NCBI GenBank assembly: GCA_023249635.1
Contig: JAHFCH010000024.1
Coordinates: forward strand, 1-45,526
From: Fibrobacterota bacterium
GTDB lineage: Bacteria; Fibrobacterota; Fibrobacteria; UBA11236
Direction of reading: 5' to 3'
DNA length: 45,526 bases
This document shows, one piece after another, positions 3,011 through 14,832 of this stretch. Below the pieces are notes generated by a model, which was given only the letters and a program-made list of their open reading frames with translations, was not told the origin of the DNA and did not search any database. The position numbers and the translations under genes are program-made. Within the stretch, counting starts at the first letter, position 1. Each line of letters begins with the position of its first letter.

Positions 3011-4015
3011 ATGACTACACCTAAGCTGACGCTATGCGCCGGTCTAACCCTTGCTTTCCTCCTCACCGGTTGCCGTTCGCGGCAGGAGGCCGCGGGAGAC
3101 AAGTACCGCAAGATTGGGGATCCGCTGCACTCCCTGATGAACTATGAGGAAGCCCTCAAGCGTGGGCCGGTCTCGAAGGAGTTCTACAAGAATTATACCC
3201 TGGTCAATATCCAGGCCATGGGCTTGCGCGCCAAGGAAGACCCGACCGCCGAGTTCCTGGACATCCTCAAGGATACCGTGGCCAGCCTGCTGACCCAGTA
3301 CCCGGATCCCCAGAACCAAACCCTGTTTGCCAGCACCCTGTCGAGCATCGCCAGCGCCCGCATCAAGATTGGATCGTCCGAAGCCATGGAAGGCGGTTTC
3401 CGCTTCCTACAGGCCGCGGAGAAGGCCGGCGCCGGTGGCGGAGCCGCAGCCAAGCAACAAGTGGTCGCGTCCAAGCTCAAGGAGATCGAGGACGATTACA
3501 ACGATGCGGCGAAAAACCCCACCTCGGGCATCGTGGCCGATTATAAGCTGAGCAAACTGTCCCTCATGACCGGCGGCGACAGCCCCGAGATGAATGCCCT
3601 GTGGTCCAAGGTCCGCAAGGTGAACCTGAACACCTACCTGATGTACGACAACGACGACGTGGCGGGCGAACTGGGCGAGCGTCCCGACTCGCGCATCAAC
3701 AAGTACGGCGTGCTGCTCGGCATCGTGAAATACGAACCCGGTTCCACCACCACAAAGATCCAGGTCAAGGCCTGGAACGGCGCTTCCGTGCTCTTCCATT
3801 ACCGCGGCGAAGGCTTCACCCTGTACGCCAAGGACGGCACCGCCTTCAAGCCCACCGCCAAAATCGGCGGCTTCGCGAAGACGGACAAGGACGTGATCCA
3901 GAAGAGCGACGAGTCGAAGACCGGCGGTCTTACCTTCACCCATCCCGCCGGGACCGAAGTCAGCTACTTGGAATTCAAGTGCGAAGCGGGCACCACCCGC
4001 AAGTACCTGCCCTGA
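3011..4015 (+). CDS. Predicted lipoprotein of unknown function
   Basis: The 334-residue product starts with a signal peptide ending in the lipobox LLTGC, giving lipidated Cys21. Residues 25-190 look alpha-helical, with a TPR-like character (YRKIGDPLHSLMNYEEALKRG). The C-terminal third, from about residue 225, is richer in beta strand and contains a stretch of the kind VKAWNGASVLFHYRGEGF. This suggests a helical N-domain plus a C-terminal beta-sandwich. AGGAAG precedes the ATG by about 5 bases. The last 52 bases overlap the 3' end of the convergent pectate lyase gene. A strong intrinsic terminator follows at 4093. I do not recognise a family; localisation at the periplasmic face of a membrane is the only firm inference. 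Confidence 0.75.
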   Translation: MTTPKLTLCAGLTLAFLLTGCRSRQEAAGDKYRKIGDPLHSLMNYEEALKRGPVSKEFYKNYTLVNIQAMGLRAKEDPTAEFLDILKDTVASLLTQYPDPQNQTLFASTLSSIASARIKIGSSEAMEGGFRFLQAAEKAGAGGGAAAKQQVVASKLKEIEDDYNDAAKNPTSGIVADYKLSKLSLMTGGDSPEMNALWSKVRKVNLNTYLMYDNDDVAGELGERPDSRINKYGVLLGIVKYEPGSTTTKIQVKAWNGASVLFHYRGEGFTLYAKDGTAFKPTAKIGGFAKTDKDVIQKSDESKTGGLTFTHPAGTEVSYLEFKCEAGTTRKYLP

Positions 4016-5142
4016 AGGTTTTGAAAGGTGCGCGCGGGGCCTGAGGTCCCGCCGTTATCCACCAGCGCTTTTCCGGATTGAATCCGGAGACGACGGCCCG
4101 CTTCCTGCGGGCCGTTTTCTTTTCCCCCGCCCCTCACTGCGGTGACACCGTCCCAACGCAAGTTGGGTCCCGCTCCGTTCGCCGCATCGCCAACGCGCGC
4201 CTTCACCTGGGCCGCAGGAAGTAAGGCCAGGGAATACGGAGGCGTGAATGCCGTGCCCGACCCCGCGCTATCGCCCGTCGCCTTCTCGTAGAAATTGTCC
4301 TGCAGGGTCACCGCCTTGGAATTCTTCTCGAACAGGTCGATGGGATTCTGGACGCCGATGAAGGCGCTGGCCTGCACGCGGATGTCCGCTTCCAAACCCG
4401 CGCGCACGCAATAGTTCGCCTCCGCGCTGGTGAACAGGCAGTTGGCCAGATGCACCTGCCCGAAGCGCACCCGCGGCATACGTTCCACCACCCCATCGCC
4501 CCACCAATCCGCCAGGAAGGTGATGCGCAGCTTGCCGCGATCGCCGGTTTTGGAATCGCTGGACCCGATCAGATTGCAAAAGGCGTGGTTGCCGCCTTTG
4601 GCGTAGGTCATGCGGGTCCAGGAAACCGTTACCAGATCGGCTTGGTTGGTGATATCCAGATTGCCGTCGAGGCCGTCGTGGATCCACATATGATCGATCC
4701 ATACGCGGGAAACGTTTTGCACGGTCACCGCGTCCACGCCGTTCACGTCGTTGGAACCCGGGCCTTCGATCTCGAAATTGCGGATGACCACATTGGAAAA
4801 CGGTTTGGCCGATGGGGCGGTGAGGTCGATTCCGCCTATCAGGCGCGCGCCCGGGAGGCCGAGCAGGCTTTTGTCCCCGGTGGGCATGTCCACCCTACCG
4901 GTGATGGTGCCCTTGATCCACACCACCCGCTTGCCGTCGGTTTTCAAAGCGGCGTTGAGATCAGCGAGATTGTCCACCGTGGTCTCGGGACCGCCGGCGC
5001 CGCCGGGCGCGCCGCCTTGCAGCGAAGCCCAACCCACGGGAAGATCATGGACGGATGCGGTATGACCGCGCGGCGCGGTCGAAGCAACGAGGACGAAAAC
5101 GGAATAGCGGAGCCATCGCGATGCGATCCGAGCTTGGATCAT
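3964..5142 (-). CDS. Secreted pectate lyase, PL1-like
   Basis: The 392-residue product has a signal peptide of about 29 residues (hydrophobic LRYSVFVLVA, likely cleavage after HTA). A right-handed beta-helix domain carries PL1 hallmarks: VWIDH at 147-151, DGLDGNLDIT at 156-165 in the Ca-binding area, and RMPRVRFGQVH at 221-231 with the candidate catalytic Arg at 224 or 226. It would cleave pectate by beta-elimination outside the cell. The recognisable lyase fold ends near RWDG at residue 332. The last 60 residues are encoded across the terminator of the convergent lipoprotein gene and into its coding end, so this tail may be a recent extension caused by loss of the original stop. No type IX-like C-terminal domain is seen. 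A G-rich stretch precedes the ATG. Confidence 0.85.
   Translation of the reverse strand: MIQARIASRWLRYSVFVLVASTAPRGHTASVHDLPVGWASLQGGAPGGAGGPETTVDNLADLNAALKTDGKRVVWIKGTITGRVDMPTGDKSLLGLPGARLIGGIDLTAPSAKPFSNVVIRNFEIEGPGSNDVNGVDAVTVQNVSRVWIDHMWIHDGLDGNLDITNQADLVTVSWTRMTYAKGGNHAFCNLIGSSDSKTGDRGKLRITFLADWWGDGVVERMPRVRFGQVHLANCLFTSAEANYCVRAGLEADIRVQASAFIGVQNPIDLFEKNSKAVTLQDNFYEKATGDSAGSGTAFTPPYSLALLPAAQVKARVGDAANGAGPNLRWDGVTAVRGGGKENGPQEAGRRLRIQSGKALVDNGGTSGPARTFQNLQGRYLRVVPASHLNSK
4072..4088 (+). other. Short hairpin just before the terminator
   Basis: TCCGGAT pairs with ATCCGGA around a three-base TGA loop. It lies about 55 bases after the lipoprotein stop and directly before the intrinsic terminator, so the mRNA probably ends in a double hairpin. 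Confidence 0.5.
4093..4123 (+). terminator. Intrinsic terminator of the 3011-4015 lipoprotein gene
   Basis: A perfect 9-bp stem ACGGCCCGC/GCGGGCCGT with loop TTCCT runs straight into a T-rich tract (TTTTCTTTT). Orientation is plus only, because the opposite strand lacks a U-tract. The same bases are read as coding sequence of the antisense pectate lyase. Confidence 0.9.
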
Positions 5143-5229: not shown

Positions 5230-8200
5230 TCAACGGGATAAGACGAGGATATTCCGCTTGGAACTGAGGGTACGGGAAGGGGAATCGGCGTTTCCGGCCG
5301 TGGGGGCCTGGCGCGCGATGACTTGGTAGAAATAGACCCCGTTCCCGAGCCCATTCCCCCAGGCGTCCCGGCCGTCCCAGCGGGTCTCGCCCGAACGCGC
5401 CCCATCGAACACGCGTACCAAACGGCCTGCCTGATCGAAGACGCGCACTTCGAATCCGATGCGCGCCTTGGCAGACGTGGGATCATCCAGGTCGGCGGCC
5501 CGCGCAGGCGCCACCGTGGAGAAGTAGAAGGTGGTTCCGTTCCGCTTCATGGGATTGGGCACGTTGTAGGCCGAGATGGTATTGAGGGACGAGTCCGCGT
5601 TGAGATCCATGCGCAAGGTACGTGAACTGAAATTACCGTATCCGTCCCGGGCCGAGACCTTGAGCAGCCGGATACCGGGCGGAATGGACCCCTTATCGAG
5701 AGGCAGGCGATATACCTTGCGGTATAATCCGTCGATGCCCGCATGGGGATGGAAGGGATCGCGCACCCCCGGGATTTCCAAGGTGGTGCCTTCGTCCGGT
5801 CCTTCGGCGGCAAGCACGCCGCCCAGCGAATCCTCCACGCTGATCTCCAGGCAATACGGTATCGGCAAACGCACCTGATCCGGGAAATCCAGGTTACCTG
5901 TTTCCGTCGGCTCGCAGCCGGTGATGCGGATGCGCGGACCCTTGCCGTCCGAATCCTTGGCGCATTCTCCCCGGGAAACCCCGCGGATGGCCAGGCCGGT
6001 TTTCGCGGCCGAACCTTCCCGCTCTTGCTTGGCATCCCAGGCGAAGGCCAGGATGCGCGCATTCGTGTCCCCGAAAGCGATTTGCTTGGGGATGAAATAA
6101 GCTGCCGAAAAGCGGCCATCCTTATAGGGAAATGTGCCTTCGAACATTACCGGACCGCGGAGCACGGCCCTTTGCGTATCCACATTGGATTTCTCGAAGA
6201 CCGGCGGCCAGAAGCGCGGTCTGGGTTGCGCCAAAATGCGGATGTTAATCGATCCGGAACCGCTACCCCCTTCGATACGGCCTTCGATATTGCCGCAGTC
6301 GAGGGCCTGCAGCGAATCCGGTGTCTTATCCAGGGAAACGGCCAGGGGCGCCTTGCGTAAGGCCAGCACGGGCTCACCCAACAATGCGTAGCGCGAAGAG
6401 TTATGCCGCGAGTCGCCCCGCACGCCCGCATCGTTCTTCGCCAGGCGCAAGGCCTCCCCCATGGGTACCGCATCGCCGAGGCGGGAGCGGCCGGCATGGG
6501 AATAGAACGCGTGGGCCAACGCGATATTCTCGCTGGGAAAGGATTCGCGTACCGCGGAAACCGCGGCGATGGCGCCGCGCTCCGGAGCGGCGACGAAGAG
6601 TTCGCTCATCCCCACTTGCGCGTAGTCGTCAAAGCGCCCCACCGTGCACGAGAACGAGTTGATCATGGGCGTGCGATCGGGATTGTGCATGCGGGCCAGC
6701 CCGTCATTGGATTGCAGCAGCACCTCGTCGGCCCATTGGTTATGCGATCCATGGCCAACGTAATTGACCAGTACGGTCCCCTGGTCGATGAGGGAAAGCA
6801 GATCCTGGCTGGCTTCCGGCTTGTGATAAGCGGGATTCATGGGATAGTCAACCAGGTAAATCTTGTCCGCGGCCAAGCCCGGTTCGCCCGCCTCCATTCG
6901 CCGTGCCACCGAGTCCGAGGAAGTGGTATGGCCCTGCTTGATAAGATCGTCATCCCGCGCATTGGCCCCGCGCTGCACGCCATCGTCTGCGGCGAAGGTG
7001 ATGCGGCCGCGCCAGGCTCCCGCCAACGCGGGATCCTCCCAGGCCTTGGCCTTGGCAAGGCAGGCTTCGGCCTGCGCGGAACTGTTCACAGGCAGGCGCC
7101 CGACCGCCACGTCCAACAGGGCCCCGGTCCCCACCGTCTCACCGCTATCCAGCAAGGCATAATAATCGTCGCTGGCCAGACCTTCGGCGCCATTGGAGCG
7201 GCCATCCAACCATTCGAAGGGCGGCACGCGGTTGCGGGGGGAATCGCGCCTTAACCCGCTGCGGACTTCGCGGTAATCGTAATGACCATCGCCCAGCAGC
7301 AGTACGTACCGTAACGGATTGGACCCCGCGGCGTCGCCACCCCAAGCCGACCAAGCCCAGCGGAGGAAATCCCGGATCGCGGGCGGCGAAAGGCGTCCGC
7401 CTGAATAGGCGCGGTAGATGTCTTCGGTGAACACCACCGCGGTCTTATACGGTCGGCCCCGCGCGGGATCCTGCCGGTATTTCGCCCAGGCCGCCGCCTG
7501 CTCCGCGAATTCGCCCGGGGCGATAATCAGGTACTCGGGCGCGGCGGCGGAACCGCCGGCCAGATCCCGAATGCCCAGCCCGGCCCTTCCTGGCTGTTCC
7601 AAGCTTAGCGCCGAAGCCGGAAGGGCGGACGGCACGTCATACAGCAGGTATTGGGCATCGGCATCGGCCGCCAGGCTGTCGCTGAACTCGCCGGCCCCAT
7701 CGAGAAGGAACCGTTTCAAGGCCACCCCGTCCTCGATACGCAAGCAGGCAAGGCCCGCGCCCCCTTCCACCCGGTAACGCGCGCGTTCCCCATGGATTTC
7801 CGGGAAGATGCGCAACGGGGTCCCGGACCATGCCAGACGACGGCGGTAACTTACGGTATACCCCTCGAACTTGGCGTCATGGACCCGCCATTCCACGGAG
7901 GCGAAACGGAATCGGCCTCCTGTTCCCAGGGGCGCGGTGGAAACGTACCAGTTACCCTTGCCCGTTCCGGATTCTACCCAGGGGAGCGGATCGGTTCCCC
8001 CTTCCAGGCGGATGGTGAAATCATCCGGGGACTGATACGGGTAGGGGAACATGCCCACGAAAACCGAATCGCCCCCGCCTTGCAAGGCATCCTTGAGCAC
8101 ATCGGTTTCGGGCATGGAGAGTTGTGAACCCGACAAGGTGCGCGGCTTTTCCGATCCCCTGCAAGACCCGCCCCAGATCCAGAACCAGGAGACGCCGGAA

Positions 8201-9492
8201 GCGGAATCCTCCCTTCCCCCGTCATTGCCGGGCTCGCAGGAAAGCATCACCAGGTCCCGCTCCGCGCGCACATAGTGCCTTAGACTCGCGCTGGTGGCCC
8301 CGCCCGGCGGGGACGCCGACACGGTCAAGCGCATTGGGGCATCGGAATCCTTGCCGGAGAAATCCAACCAATACCCATTGGCTTGATCATACGGATCTTC
8401 ATTGAAGGCATAGCGGATGGGGCCGGTGGCCTCCCTGAGGCGTCGCCACACGCTGGTACCGTGGCCATAGAAGGAGACACTGTCCCCGCCATCGAAGGTG
8501 CCATTGCCGTTGGCGTCGGTAACCCCCAGAGGGATTTGCCGTAACCGCCCGGGTACCGGTTCGCCTTGCGGAACGATGGGAAGGGTATCCCCAGGGCCCG
8601 TATACATGCGCAAGGCCTCGATGCGCGCTCCGACCACGCTGGGGGCAAGGCGGGCGATATCAGCGAAGGCGAGGCCATAGACCCTGTCTTCGGCGAAGGC
8701 CCCGGGATCGCCATCGCCGACACGGATACGCAGCAGGGAATCCCCAAGCAGAGGTTGGGAGGCTGCGCCTTTCGAAAGCGCCCGCGACGGATGGGGCCTG
8801 GCGGGAGAGGCGAAGGCGGCCCCCCCAACGGGATTCAGGGTTTCACCGCGCAGGGCGGCAGGCAACGCGCTCGCGCCATACGCTCCGCCGCGTACCGGAT
8901 ACTTTACGGTGATGCGCGCCTGCTTCATCCAGGTCAGGGTATGGCGGGCCTCATCCCACCTGGCGATAGGAACGCGGATGGAACGAAGGGTCCAGGCTCC
9001 CCGGCGCAGGGCCGGCCCGATTACCGCAGTCGGGGCCGCCGCGGCGCGGTAGGCCGAATCATTGCGTGCGAAGGTATCCCGGCCCGGCGCGAGATGGACG
9101 GGAACGGGAGCGATGCCACCAGGCAAGGCGCTGAACCCGGTTAACACCGGTGTTACCTCGGTCCGGGGCGCCGCAGGACCGCATAGGACATCGAAGGCCG
9201 CATAAGGCAAATCCGGTTCTCCGGGAGTCACACCCCGGCTGCAGCCCTCGCATTCGGCCCTCAGGGCCCCATCACTACCGGAGGGGAGAAGCCTCAATTC
9301 CCCGGCATCGATTTCCCCCACCAGTCTTCCCGGCTCGTCGATAAGGACTTGGAACGGATGTCCCGCCGCTTGGGAAAGGCAAGGCAGGCATGCCGTCAGG
9401 CCAAGCAGGGCTGCGGCGAAGAACCTACCGAAATTCACCCTATGATAGGGCCTACGGAAGGGCCGCGGGGCATGCAGAACAGGTTCGGGCAT
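5230..9492 (-). CDS. C25 (gingipain/PorU-like) peptidase with FlgD-like C-terminal domain, copy 1
   Basis: The product has 1420 residues. A hydrophobic export segment near residues 23-43 contains LTAC and CLPC; LTAC fits a lipobox, so it is either a lipoprotein or a cleaved secreted protein. A gingipain-like propeptide/beta region follows, then the C25 catalytic domain at roughly 650-1040. The catalytic pair is visible as His914 in NYVGHGSHNQW and Cys949 in NSFSCTVGRFD. The end carries an YNVPNPMKR segment and a FlgD-like Ig domain (VRVFDQAGRLVRVF, WDGRDAWGNGLGNGVYFY) closing with SSKRNILVLSR, typical of type IX secretion signals. C25 proteins of this size include PorU, the type IX sortase, and secreted gingipain-like proteases; the sequence alone does not separate them. 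It lies 92 bases downstream of a paralogue on the same strand. The ATG has only a weak ribosome site and an internal GTG (residue 19) is possible. Confidence 0.85.
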   Translation of the reverse strand: MPEPVLHAPRPFRRPYHRVNFGRFFAAALLGLTACLPCLSQAAGHPFQVLIDEPGRLVGEIDAGELRLLPSGSDGALRAECEGCSRGVTPGEPDLPYAAFDVLCGPAAPRTEVTPVLTGFSALPGGIAPVPVHLAPGRDTFARNDSAYRAAAAPTAVIGPALRRGAWTLRSIRVPIARWDEARHTLTWMKQARITVKYPVRGGAYGASALPAALRGETLNPVGGAAFASPARPHPSRALSKGAASQPLLGDSLLRIRVGDGDPGAFAEDRVYGLAFADIARLAPSVVGARIEALRMYTGPGDTLPIVPQGEPVPGRLRQIPLGVTDANGNGTFDGGDSVSFYGHGTSVWRRLREATGPIRYAFNEDPYDQANGYWLDFSGKDSDAPMRLTVSASPPGGATSASLRHYVRAERDLVMLSCEPGNDGGREDSASGVSWFWIWGGSCRGSEKPRTLSGSQLSMPETDVLKDALQGGGDSVFVGMFPYPYQSPDDFTIRLEGGTDPLPWVESGTGKGNWYVSTAPLGTGGRFRFASVEWRVHDAKFEGYTVSYRRRLAWSGTPLRIFPEIHGERARYRVEGGAGLACLRIEDGVALKRFLLDGAGEFSDSLAADADAQYLLYDVPSALPASALSLEQPGRAGLGIRDLAGGSAAAPEYLIIAPGEFAEQAAAWAKYRQDPARGRPYKTAVVFTEDIYRAYSGGRLSPPAIRDFLRWAWSAWGGDAAGSNPLRYVLLLGDGHYDYREVRSGLRRDSPRNRVPPFEWLDGRSNGAEGLASDDYYALLDSGETVGTGALLDVAVGRLPVNSSAQAEACLAKAKAWEDPALAGAWRGRITFAADDGVQRGANARDDDLIKQGHTTSSDSVARRMEAGEPGLAADKIYLVDYPMNPAYHKPEASQDLLSLIDQGTVLVNYVGHGSHNQWADEVLLQSNDGLARMHNPDRTPMINSFSCTVGRFDDYAQVGMSELFVAAPERGAIAAVSAVRESFPSENIALAHAFYSHAGRSRLGDAVPMGEALRLAKNDAGVRGDSRHNSSRYALLGEPVLALRKAPLAVSLDKTPDSLQALDCGNIEGRIEGGSGSGSINIRILAQPRPRFWPPVFEKSNVDTQRAVLRGPVMFEGTFPYKDGRFSAAYFIPKQIAFGDTNARILAFAWDAKQEREGSAAKTGLAIRGVSRGECAKDSDGKGPRIRITGCEPTETGNLDFPDQVRLPIPYCLEISVEDSLGGVLAAEGPDEGTTLEIPGVRDPFHPHAGIDGLYRKVYRLPLDKGSIPPGIRLLKVSARDGYGNFSSRTLRMDLNADSSLNTISAYNVPNPMKRNGTTFYFSTVAPARAADLDDPTSAKARIGFEVRVFDQAGRLVRVFDGARSGETRWDGRDAWGNGLGNGVYFYQVIARQAPTAGNADSPSRTLSSKRNILVLSR

Positions 9493-9584
9493 TTTGGACT
9501 CAAGGCGCGTGTCCGGGATAAATACAAAGGTGCCCAGGGCGGGTCACGCCAGGATGCAGAAGGAAGGCCCGGAAGGGCGGCTTT

Positions 9585-12500
9585 TTACCTGGAGATGACG
9601 AGAGTGTTACGCTTCGAGCTCAAGGTCCGGTAGCCCGGCTTGGCGTTGACGTCGAAGAGGTCTTGGCGCGCGGTGATGGAATAGAAATAGACGCCGTTGG
9701 CGAGCAGGTTCCCCCATCGATCATGACCATCCCATGTGGTGGTTCCCGAAGCGGCATCCTGGAATACCTTCACCAGGCGCCCTGCCTGATCGAAGATGCG
9801 GATTTCGAAGAACAACCTCTGCTTGCCGTTGTTCTCGCCCCCGTACTCCACCTCATTGGAAGGGATGGAGGTGGAGAAATAGAAAGTCGTGCCCTTGCGC
9901 TTCATGGGATTGGGAACGTTGTACGCGGTGACGGTGGTGATGGAGCTGTCCACGGTCAGGTCCATCTGCAATTGTCGCGCGCCGATATTGCCGTAGCCGT
10001 CGCGCGCGGAGACTTTCAACAGGTAGGCGCCGGGCCGGATGCCTTTTTTGTCGAGGGAGTACTGGTAGGTCTTGATATACAGATCGTCGACGCCCGGGGC
10101 GGGATGAAAAGGATCGACCAGTCCCGGGATTTCCAGGGTGGTGCCTTCGTCCGGGCCTTCCGAGGAAAGGACACCCCCGAGGGAATCCTCCACGCTGATC
10201 TGCAGGCAATACGGCAGCGGCAACTTCACGTGATCGGGGAAATCCACGTCGCCGGTTTCGGTCTGCTCGCAGCCGCTGATGCGGATACGGGGGCCTTTGC
10301 CATCGGAGTCCATGGCGCATGCGCTGCTGGTTCCGCTGATGGGCAGGTTCTGCCGGGCCATGGTGCCTTCCATCTCCAGGCTGTCATCCCAGGCGAACAC
10401 CAGCACCTGGGCATTGGTATCCCCGAAGGAGACCTGCTTGGGGATGAAATAGTCGCTCTCGAAAGCGCCGTTCTTATAGGGCAGGGTGCGCTCGAAAAGG
10501 ATGTTCCCGCGCTTCTCGACTTCCTGGGGGGTGAATCCTCCGGGCAGGTTGTAGGTCTTGTGCATTGTGCCGGCCACGATCTTGATGTTGACCTTGCCAT
10601 TGCCCAGGCCGCCCTGTACCGTACCCTTGATGGTGCGGCAATCCAGGGCTTTGATGGTGTCCATCACTTGGGTCAAAGCCAGCTTCAATTGCGGCTTGCG
10701 CATGAGCAGTACGGGCTCGCCCAGCAGGTTGTACTTGATGTCGTTGAGGTTGTCGGCATTGGTCTCGGAGGAATTCTTGGCTTCGCGCAAGGCCTCGCCG
10801 ACCGTCACCGTGATACCCGTTGAATCGCCCGGGAACACGCGGGCATAGAAGGCATCGGCCAGTTGGATGTTGGGATGGGGAAAGGATTCCCGCGTGGCGG
10901 AAACGGCTCCGATTGCGCCTACGCTTTTCTGCTTCACGAATTGCTCGCTCATCCCTTCTCCGGAAAGGCTCTCGAAGCGGCCCACGGTGCAGGAGAAGGC
11001 GTTCACCATGGGCGTGCGCCCTTCGTTGCGCATGCGCGCGATGGCGTCATTGGTCTGCAGCAGCACCTCGTCGGCCCATTGGTTGGACGCGCCATGGCCC
11101 ACGTAATTGATCATCAGGGTGCCGCGGTTGATTAAGGTGAGCAGGTCTTGCGCGGCCTCGGGCTTGTGGTAAGAAGAGTTCATGGGATAATCGAGCAGGT
11201 ACACTTTGTCGACGGTAATGCCCTTCTCGTTGCCCGCGATGGCCAGCCCGATTTGATCAGCATCCGTGGTATGGCCTTGGGTGATGGGGTCGTAGTCCTT
11301 CTCGTTGGCGCCCCGTTGGATATTGTCGTCCGCCGTCATTACGATGCGCCCCCGCCACTCCCCGGCCAGCTTGGGATCCTCGTAGTCGGAAATCTTCTTC
11401 AGGTAATCCTTCGCCTGCACGGGGTCCTGCACGGGCACGCGGCCCAAGGCGACCTGCAAGGCACCGCCCCCATAGCCGAATTCCGCCGGTTCCAGCAGGC
11501 CGTAGAAATCGTCCGAGGCTACGTCCTCGTGGCCGTTGTCGACGATGAATTCGTAGGGGGGCACCACGTTGGGCGGGCGCTTCTTCATCAGGGAAGCACG
11601 GATGTTACGGTAATCGTAATGGCCGTCGCCGAAGAACAGCACGTATTTGAGCGCGCCGGCCTTGGACTGGCTGCCCCATCCCCCGTAGGCCCAACGCAGG
11701 AAATCGCGGATGGCGGTCGGGGAAAGGCGGCCGCCGGAAAATTGGCGATAGATGTCCTCGACGCATACCACTTCGCTATTGAGCTTGAGCGCGCGCTTGG
11801 GCGCGTTGCGGTAATCGCGCAGCATCAGGGCCTGCGCCAGCAGGGAACGATCGGTGATGATCAGGTAATCCGGGGATTTGCCGTCGCCGGTGACGAGATT
11901 GCGCAGTGACGTAGCGGCTGCGGGCAGAGCGTCGGCTTCCAGGGCGGAGGCCGTCAAAGCCGCAGGATCCTGATAGACCAGATAGCGGGCATCCGAGCCC
12001 GCGGCGACACTGTCCGTAAATACTCCTTGGCCGTCCAGGACCATCAGCTTGCCCGCCACTCCGTGTTCGACGCGCAGGCACTTGGCCCCGGCCCCGCCCG
12101 TCACCTTGAAACTCACCGCGATGCCGGACCGCTCGGGAAAGAGCCACAAGGGTTCGCCGCGGAAGACGTGGTTGCGTTTGTACGCCACCGTATAGCCTTC
12201 GAACTTGTTCTCATTCCCGCCCCAAGCCAAGCCATCAAGCTGGAAGGCCGGCGCGTTCTTGATGCCGCGCGTGATCGCGAACCAGCTTCCCGGCGAAGCC
12301 GTCAGCCCGATAAAGTCGGCGGTGTCGCCGTCGCCGCCGTAGTAGGGTTTGAAGATGGTGGTCGATTCGGCGTTGGCGCGGAAGATATGGAAGCCGATGT
12401 AGACGGAGTCGCTGGGCGAGGTCAAATCGGGAAGGGAGTCGGTTTCCGCGCTCAACAGGCTGGCGCGGGATAGCAGGGTATCGTTGTTGGAACCGCTGGA

Positions 12501-13820
12501 ACAGCCGCCCTTCCAATGCCAATGCCAATCGTATCCGGCCTCTTCGTCCTTATGTCCCGAAGGATCGCAACCGGCGGTGGCCAGATCCTTTTCCGCGCGC
12601 AGATAGGCCAGGCTCGCGGCGACGGGCGTCCCGGTTGCGGGCATGGAAGCCGACTCCGAAAGGCGCGAGCCGTCCTGGGTCCCGGTCCAATCCAGGTAGT
12701 AATAGTTCTCGAAGGAATAGGTATCCTCGCTGAACTCCCAGCGGATGGGCCCGGGCGTGTCCGCCAAGCGCTTCCAGATACTGGCCCCGTGGGCGTAGAA
12801 CACGATACGGTCGTCATGATCGAAAGTGCCGTTGTTATCCGCGTCGATCACCTGGATGGGTATCTCCTTCAGGGTGCCGGATACGGGGGCCACCGCGGTA
12901 TCCATGCGGCGGGGCAGGGTATCGTTGGGGCCGCCGAACAGGCGCAGGCGGGAAACCCGGGCGGCGTTGATATCGGCGGTCACGGCGGAAAGCTGGGAGA
13001 AGGACAGGGAGTAGACCTGATCCTCCTGGAAATTCTCGACATTGTGATCGCCCACCTTGATGCGGACGAAGCGCGGTTCGATATCGGCAGCGGTGGCCGC
13101 GCCTTTGCGGAGAGCAGGGAGAGGCAGGCGTCGGGGCGCACCCGAGAGGAAGGCGCCGCCATCGGGATTAAGCACAGCCAGGCGGAAGGCGCCGGTGAGC
13201 CGCAAGGGCGAGGCGGAAGCGAAGGCTCCCGGGAATACGACTTCAACGCGCAGACGTCGGGCCGACAACAGGCTTTTACCGCCCTGGTCCCAGGCTGCCA
13301 GGGGCACTTCGATGCCGCGGATGGCCAGCCCGCGCAGCTTGCGTTTGGCCAACAGGCGGGCCTGAAATCCGGAGGCGGCGCGGTAGAGGGCCGCTTCGGG
13401 GCGGAAGACCTCGCGGTTGGGTGTGGGAGTTTCCGGAAAAGGCGCGATGCCTTCGGGAAGAATGCGGGAGTCCGAAGCCAGGGCTTGCACGGTGACGCGG
13501 GGATCATTCGCCCCGGTGAGCACATCGAAGCGGTATACGGGGAGGTCGGGTGCGCCGGCGCGACCGACGCTATGGCAGCCCGGGCAATGGACGCTGAACC
13601 CTTCGGCTCCGGCCACCGGGTGCAGGGACGCCGCGGGCAGGGTCAATTCCAGCACTAGGCGACCGGGGGTGTCTTCCACCACCTTGGCAGTCAGGGCGGC
13701 GGGTGCAGTCGACGGGGAAGAAACGGGAAGCGGGAGCGCGGCGGCGCGTGGGGCTCCCGGGCCCGGTAATACGGCAAGGCTAAAGCAGAGGATCCCGATG
13801 GGGGCGCGCATCGCCGTCAT
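9585..13820 (-). CDS. C25 (gingipain/PorU-like) peptidase with FlgD-like C-terminal domain, copy 2
   Basis: The product has 1411 residues from the ATG at 13818-13820. The frame stays open upstream to 14114, but that part is Arg/Pro-rich antisense of sppA and is excluded. The chosen start gives a signal peptide (MTAMRAPIGILCFSLAVLPG). The architecture matches the neighbour: propeptide-like beta region, catalytic domain with His909 (NYVGHGASNQW) and Cys944 (NAFSCTVGRFE), then MDSDGKGPRIRISGCE, YNVPNPMKRKGTTFYFS and a FlgD-like end (IFDQAGRLVKVF, LANGVYFYSITARQ, SSKRNTLVISR). Long blocks are nearly identical between the copies in the C-terminal 300 residues, with more divergence in the N-terminal half, as expected of an older tandem duplication. 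A possible promoter has TATATT at 13860-13865 (minus) with a 19-base spacer. GGGAGA lies about 12 bases before the ATG. Confidence 0.85.
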   Translation of the reverse strand: MTAMRAPIGILCFSLAVLPGPGAPRAAALPLPVSSPSTAPAALTAKVVEDTPGRLVLELTLPAASLHPVAGAEGFSVHCPGCHSVGRAGAPDLPVYRFDVLTGANDPRVTVQALASDSRILPEGIAPFPETPTPNREVFRPEAALYRAASGFQARLLAKRKLRGLAIRGIEVPLAAWDQGGKSLLSARRLRVEVVFPGAFASASPLRLTGAFRLAVLNPDGGAFLSGAPRRLPLPALRKGAATAADIEPRFVRIKVGDHNVENFQEDQVYSLSFSQLSAVTADINAARVSRLRLFGGPNDTLPRRMDTAVAPVSGTLKEIPIQVIDADNNGTFDHDDRIVFYAHGASIWKRLADTPGPIRWEFSEDTYSFENYYYLDWTGTQDGSRLSESASMPATGTPVAASLAYLRAEKDLATAGCDPSGHKDEEAGYDWHWHWKGGCSSGSNNDTLLSRASLLSAETDSLPDLTSPSDSVYIGFHIFRANAESTTIFKPYYGGDGDTADFIGLTASPGSWFAITRGIKNAPAFQLDGLAWGGNENKFEGYTVAYKRNHVFRGEPLWLFPERSGIAVSFKVTGGAGAKCLRVEHGVAGKLMVLDGQGVFTDSVAAGSDARYLVYQDPAALTASALEADALPAAATSLRNLVTGDGKSPDYLIITDRSLLAQALMLRDYRNAPKRALKLNSEVVCVEDIYRQFSGGRLSPTAIRDFLRWAYGGWGSQSKAGALKYVLFFGDGHYDYRNIRASLMKKRPPNVVPPYEFIVDNGHEDVASDDFYGLLEPAEFGYGGGALQVALGRVPVQDPVQAKDYLKKISDYEDPKLAGEWRGRIVMTADDNIQRGANEKDYDPITQGHTTDADQIGLAIAGNEKGITVDKVYLLDYPMNSSYHKPEAAQDLLTLINRGTLMINYVGHGASNQWADEVLLQTNDAIARMRNEGRTPMVNAFSCTVGRFESLSGEGMSEQFVKQKSVGAIGAVSATRESFPHPNIQLADAFYARVFPGDSTGITVTVGEALREAKNSSETNADNLNDIKYNLLGEPVLLMRKPQLKLALTQVMDTIKALDCRTIKGTVQGGLGNGKVNIKIVAGTMHKTYNLPGGFTPQEVEKRGNILFERTLPYKNGAFESDYFIPKQVSFGDTNAQVLVFAWDDSLEMEGTMARQNLPISGTSSACAMDSDGKGPRIRISGCEQTETGDVDFPDHVKLPLPYCLQISVEDSLGGVLSSEGPDEGTTLEIPGLVDPFHPAPGVDDLYIKTYQYSLDKKGIRPGAYLLKVSARDGYGNIGARQLQMDLTVDSSITTVTAYNVPNPMKRKGTTFYFSTSIPSNEVEYGGENNGKQRLFFEIRIFDQAGRLVKVFQDAASGTTTWDGHDRWGNLLANGVYFYSITARQDLFDVNAKPGYRTLSSKRNTLVISR

Positions 13821-13890: not shown

Positions 13891-13915
13891 CAGGAAAAGG
13901 GGCCTTCCGGACCCC
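13891..13915 (-). terminator. Probable weak terminator of sppA
   Basis: Immediately after the sppA stop, GGGG pairs with CCCC (with a U-G and C-G extension) around a small loop, followed by TTTTCC. The stem is short, so termination is likely partial and transcription into the downstream C25 gene is possible. Confidence 0.45.
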
Positions 13916-14832
13916 TATTTCCACATGAAGAAACTGCCCTGGCGCAGCTCCGGCAGCCAGGCTTGGGCCGCTTGGGCCAAGGATCCCAAGGAGCCCGCGT
14001 CGCCCTTGCTTTCAAAGAAGCGTTCCAATCGGGTCTTGGTCGGAGGCTCCGTGACCAGGGGCGGGTTCTCGCCCAGCTTCGCCACGGAGGCCAGGTAGCG
14101 TTCCGCCTCGGCATATCCGCCCAGGGTGTCCACCAGACCGTGGTCGCGGGCCTGCAGGCCCGTCATCACCCGACCGTCGGCGATGCGGAGCAGGTCGGCT
14201 TTGGCGATCTTGCGGTTGGCGAGGATATCGTCGATGAACTGCCCGTAGGTATTGTCGATGACCGATTGCAGGAAGCGGATGTCCTCGGGGGTGGAGGGGC
14301 GACCGAAATTACCCACGTCCTTAAGCGCGCCCGACTTTACCGTGTTGAACTTGATCCCCATCTTCCCCAACAATTTCTCGGCTTCGGGGTACTGCATGAT
14401 GACGCCGATGCTGGCCGTGAGGGTGCCGGGATTGGCGAAGATGCGATCGCCGGCCAGGGAAACGTAATAGCCGCCCGAAGCGGCCAGGTTGCCCTGGCTC
14501 ACCACGATAGGCAGGCCATGCGCCTTGAGGCCGCGCAGGGCCGAAAGGATTTCCTGGGAGGCGCCTACCGCGCCGCCGGGGGAATCGACGCGCAGCAGCA
14601 CGCCCTTGCAGCCCTTGTCCTGGGAAATGCGCCGGATGCATTCCAGGTATGCTTCCGAACCCATGATGGCGCCTTCGACGCGGAGCACGGTCAAGTGATC
14701 GCGGCGCTCGCGCAGGGCGGTTCCCTTGTCGGCGAGATGGCCGAACAGGTTGGCCATGGCTCCCATGAAATAGAAGATGGAAATGAAGGATAGGATCGAG
14801 AGGACAACGAGGATCTTCGCGAAGCGGCTCAT
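13915..14832 (-). CDS. sppA: Signal peptide peptidase SppA, short form
   Basis: The 305-residue product starts at the ATG at 14830-14832, with GGGAG about 6 bases upstream. Upstream codons in the same frame belong to the tail region of the preceding gene and are not used. An N-terminal membrane anchor (residues 7-28) precedes a single S49 peptidase domain. The Ser nucleophile is Ser119 in NLAASGGYYVS and the Lys general base is Lys171 in SGALKDVG, with the characteristic DSPGG at 83-87. The length fits the short Gram-positive/archaeal-type SppA rather than the 618-residue E. coli double-domain form. Such enzymes degrade signal-peptide remnants at the cytoplasmic membrane. It starts 20 bases after the LysM transglycosylase gene, so the two are likely co-transcribed. 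Confidence 0.92.
   Translation of the reverse strand: MSRFAKILVVLSILSFISIFYFMGAMANLFGHLADKGTALRERRDHLTVLRVEGAIMGSEAYLECIRRISQDKGCKGVLLRVDSPGGAVGASQEILSALRGLKAHGLPIVVSQGNLAASGGYYVSLAGDRIFANPGTLTASIGVIMQYPEAEKLLGKMGIKFNTVKSGALKDVGNFGRPSTPEDIRFLQSVIDNTYGQFIDDILANRKIAKADLLRIADGRVMTGLQARDHGLVDTLGGYAEAERYLASVAKLGENPPLVTEPPTKTRLERFFESKGDAGSLGSLAQAAQAWLPELRQGSFFMWK

Follow-up and report, generated by a model that had tools for sequence, protein, structure and literature searches.

A tandem pair of PorU-type peptidases in a Fibrobacterota genome: an ordinary PorU and an old, intact paralogue, likely a second sortase

Two giant C25 peptidases are encoded side by side in a Fibrobacterota contig (C210), and the arrangement raises the question of whether both are PorU, the sortase of type IX secretion, and of what a second copy would do. 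The stretch analysed here (the window) is the whole contig, 45,526 nucleotides long, from the draft genome G000 (6.75 Mb, 341 contigs, 95% complete). Sorting tails on cellulases led to the proposal that Fibrobacter has type IX secretion (PMC6851124), and Fibrobacterota are listed among the phyla that may have it (PMC11285876). In P. gingivalis, cargo exits through Sov and is carried by PorV to PorU, where its C-terminal sorting domain (CTD) is cleaved and the cargo is either joined to A-LPS or released; PorU itself retains its CTD and stays attached to the surface (PMC10202324; PMC11285876). How PorU picks cargo for release or for attachment has been noted as unknown (PMC10202324), and we found no paper on duplication of PorU in the literature searched.

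The two genes lie head to tail on the minus strand, with P2 (1411 aa, 9585..13820; its start was placed at 13820 within a longer mechanical ORF of 1509 aa) transcribed first and P1 (1420 aa, 5230..9492) second. The 92-bp gap between the P2 stop and the P1 start (9493..9584, minus strand) matched neither a sigma-70-like promoter nor a terminator and appears compatible with co-transcription of the pair. Both reading frames are intact and, as the first-pass annotation had described, both carry a His/Cys dyad, which consists in P1 of H914 (codon 6751-6753) and C949 (codon 6646-6648) within a C25 catalytic domain at 6358..7533, and in P2 of H909 (codon 11094-11096) and C944 (codon 10989-10991) within a C25 domain at 10707..11867, all on the minus strand. 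The last 115 aa of each protein form a sorting-like domain, located on the same strand at 5233..5577 in P1, where a Foldseek alignment to 6za2 over 857 columns pointed to the retained-CTD type known from PorU, and at 9588..9932 in P2; for both, Foldseek was combined with C-terminal comparison. Profile matches in these domains stayed below their cut-offs (CHU_C and FlgD_ig in P1; TIGR04183 at 19.2 bits against a cut-off of 23 in P2). The sorting-like domains had been singled out as informative, an expectation that we dropped, since PorU normally carries a CTD that stays uncleaved (PMC11285876, PMC10202324). The gene for SppA (S49 peptidase; 13915..14832, minus strand) is the genus-conserved upstream neighbour of PorU, and a gene of unknown family (w3011; 3011..4015, plus strand) and nrdR (1244-1702) together identify the downstream side of PorU, likewise conserved across the genus. 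A pectate lyase gene (3964-5142) stands between P1 and this conserved downstream gene in G000 only, and overlaps the convergent 3011-4015 gene by 52 bp.

Pfam Peptidase_C25 (PF01364) was covered over the whole model by a single domain in each protein, with 264.5 bits for P1 and 270.8 bits for P2. The cut-off of the PorU equivalog model NF033707 (420 bits) was passed by P2 (448.4 bits) and by the congener copies 79a, 84b and 92u, and P1 fell below it (380.6 bits). A match over this cut-off was found in just 33 of 168 Fibrobacterota genomes and most PorU orthologues of the phylum score under it, which suggested that the threshold is tuned to Bacteroidota; we file P1 as a PorU paralogue and not as the orthologue. 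The nearest solved structure by sequence was PorU 6za2 of P. gingivalis (phmmer E 2.2e-39 for P2 and 5.1e-31 for P1). The C25 family fold and dyad are common to P1, P2 and the gingipains RgpB and Kgp; a gingipain identity was rejected on the far weaker phmmer matches (E 0.17 for P2 and 4e-4 for P1) and on the separation from RgpB in the tree described below. PorU2 (NF052324, cut-off 450), which has a C25 core related to that of P1 and P2, was rejected as well, the two proteins reaching only 85.7 and 115.4 bits, respectively, and lying outside the PorU2-like clade.

The dyads of both proteins aligned with H655/C688 in the chain numbering of 6za2, which we take to be H657/C690 of P. gingivalis PorU, and the dyad was intact in every Fibrobacterota PorU-like row aligned. 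Elsewhere, in the congener G090 (contig C44), a short C25 protein (L120:3262-5013) has neither the His nor the Cys of the dyad (GTG, SAS) and is likely an inactive C25 homologue. The alignment behind the AlphaFold models of the C25-to-end parts contained only ten sequences, and model confidence was low (pLDDT 57, pTM 0.34 and 0.51); we used the Foldseek rank order and discarded the TM-scores as evidence. The best Foldseek match of these low-confidence models was PorU 6za2 for P1 and P2 alike, over about 825-857 columns, and, together with the C-terminal comparison, it placed Ig-like domains and an own C-terminal domain downstream of C25 in both proteins. The likeness to PorU of P. gingivalis (6za2; NF033707) extends over the C25 domain with its His/Cys dyad, the Ig-like domains and the C-terminal CTD. 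P1 and P2 differ from that protein in being about 250 residues longer upstream of C25, and the locus differs in having two tandem copies where P. gingivalis has one; no porV stands beside them, whereas porU and porV are adjacent in Parabacteroides.

A tree of 65 C25 domains, with RgpB as outgroup and with Bacteroidota PorU rows taken from a Parabacteroides record and the PDB, placed P1 and P2 within the Fibrobacterota PorU group (43 rows, support 84/64) and inside it within the clade of their own family (14 rows, 100/99), apart from RgpB and from the PorU2-like rows, which formed a separate clade (100/99). The side shared with Bacteroidota PorU had a support of 93/87 and also contained a few short non-PorU C25 proteins; at both of these deep forks (84/64 and 93/87) support is moderate. 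Where a clustering of both proteins with non-PorU clades had been considered at the outset, the tree put them, with this moderate deep support, on the PorU side. Judged from the sequences, P1 and P2 are both PorU and not gingipains, and P1 is an intact member of the family. The earlier proposal that one was PorU and the other either a second sortase or a specialised protease survives in part, with P2 as the ordinary PorU and P1 as a sortase-type paralogue; its specialised-protease option is very improbable.

P1 and P2 are 49% identical over their full length, a figure that climbs from about 35-40% in the N-terminal part to 60-72% towards the C-terminal end. The greater N-terminal divergence seen on first inspection was borne out, and so was the higher similarity of the C-terminal blocks, although "nearly identical" is true of short blocks only. 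The same N-to-C gradient was found between PorU proteins of different species, for example between P2 and its G079 orthologue, which argues for differential constraint and not for recent exchange. Gene conversion of the C-termini was rejected, P1 being there no closer to P2 than to its G079 orthologue.

PorU is normally a single-copy gene in Fibrobacterota: at E 1e-79 it was found in 159 of 168 genomes, mostly as one match and as two in 13. Six genomes of the genus share the gene order around PorU (NtrC, histidine kinase, GGDEF, TPR/TonB, LysM transglycosylase, SppA, PorU, a second copy where present, w3011, nrdR), with one or two PorU copies at the same place. Two adjacent copies were present in G000, G079 and G084, and a single one in G059, in G090 and at the syntenic site of G092, which carries another PorU copy elsewhere, unlinked. 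In the full-length tree P1 was sister to the second copy of G079 (100/100) and P2 grouped with the other syntenic copies; the PorU copies follow the flanking-gene tree, which joins G000 with G090, and G079 with G084 and G059. By synteny and trees, P2 is the ordinary PorU of the genus. A union of P1 and P2 as sisters was rejected (p-AU 4e-104), as was that of the two G079 copies (p-AU 3e-35). A recent duplication within the source genome is thereby firmly rejected, and, with P1 sister to the G079 copy, the P1 lineage predates the split of G000 and G079. The trees date the duplication that gave rise to P1 to the base of the genus or near it, and the lineage is possibly older than the split from G092 (p-AU 0.23).

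A P1-type copy beside P2 was found only in G000 and in one (G079) of five congeners, and the reconstructed history has the P1 lineage later lost in G059 and G090. These are draft genomes, in which single absences may reflect assembly gaps; at the syntenic sites of the genus such a gap is unlikely because both flanks are present there. The second copy of G084 is a younger P2-type duplicate (83% identical, with a synonymous distance of about 0.6 over the whole length). Independent tandem PorU pairs, in each of which the two members are mutual closest kin, occur in two other families (G109:C366, locus L074; G070:C257, locus L083), and unlinked duplicates occur in G008, G040 and G058. By these relationships, PorU was duplicated in tandem on at least three further, independent occasions in other lineages.

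P1 has been conserved to a considerable extent: of the positions at which all P2-type proteins of the genus agree, it retains 118 of 137 in C25 and 139 of 164 downstream of it. Over the C25-to-end part, dN/dS was about 0.25 between P1 and its G079 orthologue and about 0.21 for the P2 pair, rough values with dS near saturation. The P1 proteins of G000 and G079 are both intact at 52% identity, and in the full-length tree the P1 branch has about double the length of the P2 branch (0.81 vs 0.43). This pattern fits a constrained yet diverging second sortase. The absence of P1 from the locus in four of the six genus genomes indicates that it is dispensable in the genus.

We favour, with a probability of about two in three, the reading in which P2 is the ordinary PorU and P1 an old intact paralogue that likely works as a second CTD peptidase/sortase with a shifted preference. 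P2 would be exported and kept at the surface as a Cys/His peptidase, cutting the C-terminal sorting domain off type IX cargo past the Sov translocon and then joining the new C-terminus of the cargo to a surface acceptor or releasing the cargo. P1 preserves all parts of the PorU architecture (N-terminal domains, C25 dyad, Ig-like domains and a CTD of the retained type), evolves at about twice the rate of P2 under continuing purifying selection, and would most likely act as a second CTD peptidase/sortase with a shifted cargo or acceptor preference. Family membership, the age of the duplication and the intact state of the genes follow from the analyses above, whereas the enzymatic activity of both proteins, with its reaction and acceptor, and any division of labour between them we infer by homology to P. 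gingivalis PorU; P1 probably serves a different subset of cargo, or may pair with P2. The novelty is modest, type IX secretion having already been proposed for Fibrobacterota, and consists of a tandem copy, probably a second sortase, that is ancient yet intact and evolves faster than P2. The repeated tandem duplication of a normally single-copy PorU provides material on cargo and acceptor choice, and one duplicate kept intact over most of the history of the genus is natural material for studying what sets the choice made by PorU.

Among the alternatives, P1 could be a regulatory or structural partner of P2, forming a heterodimer that tunes P2 activity or PorV docking, with its own catalysis secondary. 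This seems unlikely, even though the two genes follow each other on one strand across a 92-bp gap that matched no promoter or terminator, the non-catalytic C-terminal part is strongly conserved, and latent PorU dimers, in which the hairpin of one subunit blocks the other, have been described in P. gingivalis (PMC10202324): the dyad, which a partner with a structural role only could afford to lose, is retained in both P1 proteins, and the second copy is unlinked in one congener (G092). That P1 is instead a redundant dosage duplicate, which has lasted through chance and drift without a role of its own, we consider improbable. Its scattered presence (it was lost in G059 and in G090, and at the syntenic site in G092) and the repeated independent duplications agree with redundancy, but the P1 proteins of G000 and G079, intact and constrained at 52% identity, have outlasted what would be expected of a neutral duplicate. 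A specialised secreted protease in a gingipain-like role, with the sortase function left behind, is very hard to credit, since the faster evolution of P1 (branch 0.81 vs 0.43 for P2) and its score under the PorU cut-off are set against a best structure match and tree placement with PorU, a complete PorU C-terminal architecture and the retention of most PorU-invariant positions.

A second sortase, as preferred here, would work within a type IX system, and Sov, the PorV family and CTD cargo were checked in G000. Sov/SprA is present there with 635.8 bits (cut-off 200), as are a PorV/PorQ-family barrel that passes its cut-off (179.2 bits), additional PorV-family matches and 30 type A sorting-tail matches, 26 of them over cut-off. 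The first-pass annotation had left room for a genome devoid of type IX machinery, and had named porV, sov/sprA and porK-N as the genes to look for; Sov/SprA and PorV-family barrels were found, and the Bacteroidota models of GldL/M/N, run without a positive control, gave no match over cut-off. The GldL and GldN models had no match over cut-off in 11 Fibrobacterota genomes including G000 (no positive-control genome), another GldN model and one for a GldM domain had none in 8 genomes (one of them single-contig), and the full GldM model had none over cut-off in G000. PorU, by contrast, occurs in all of these genomes. Either these parts are too divergent in Fibrobacterota, or the motor and ring differ. 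It is doubtful that the locus represents a two-sortase pair splitting cargo or acceptors within a Fibrobacterota system in which Sov, PorV and PorU are combined with a motor and ring that differ from the PorKLMN of Bacteroidota.

Several other genes related to this system were observed. A PorV/PorQ-family barrel of 886 aa in G000 (L133:9462-12122, contig C310) has its PorV match split by an insertion of ~500 aa, which contains a weak PorZ-like stretch. A third large C25 protein of G000 (L007:2377-7410, contig C337), 1678 aa long and with its own type A sorting tail, was placed in the PorU2-like clade of the C25 tree; this clade is found across Fibrobacterota, and none of its members was seen in the family-f2 genomes checked. 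Finally, a phylum relative (G022) contains 38 C25 matches, several of them in tandem, representing a large expansion of C25 peptidases.
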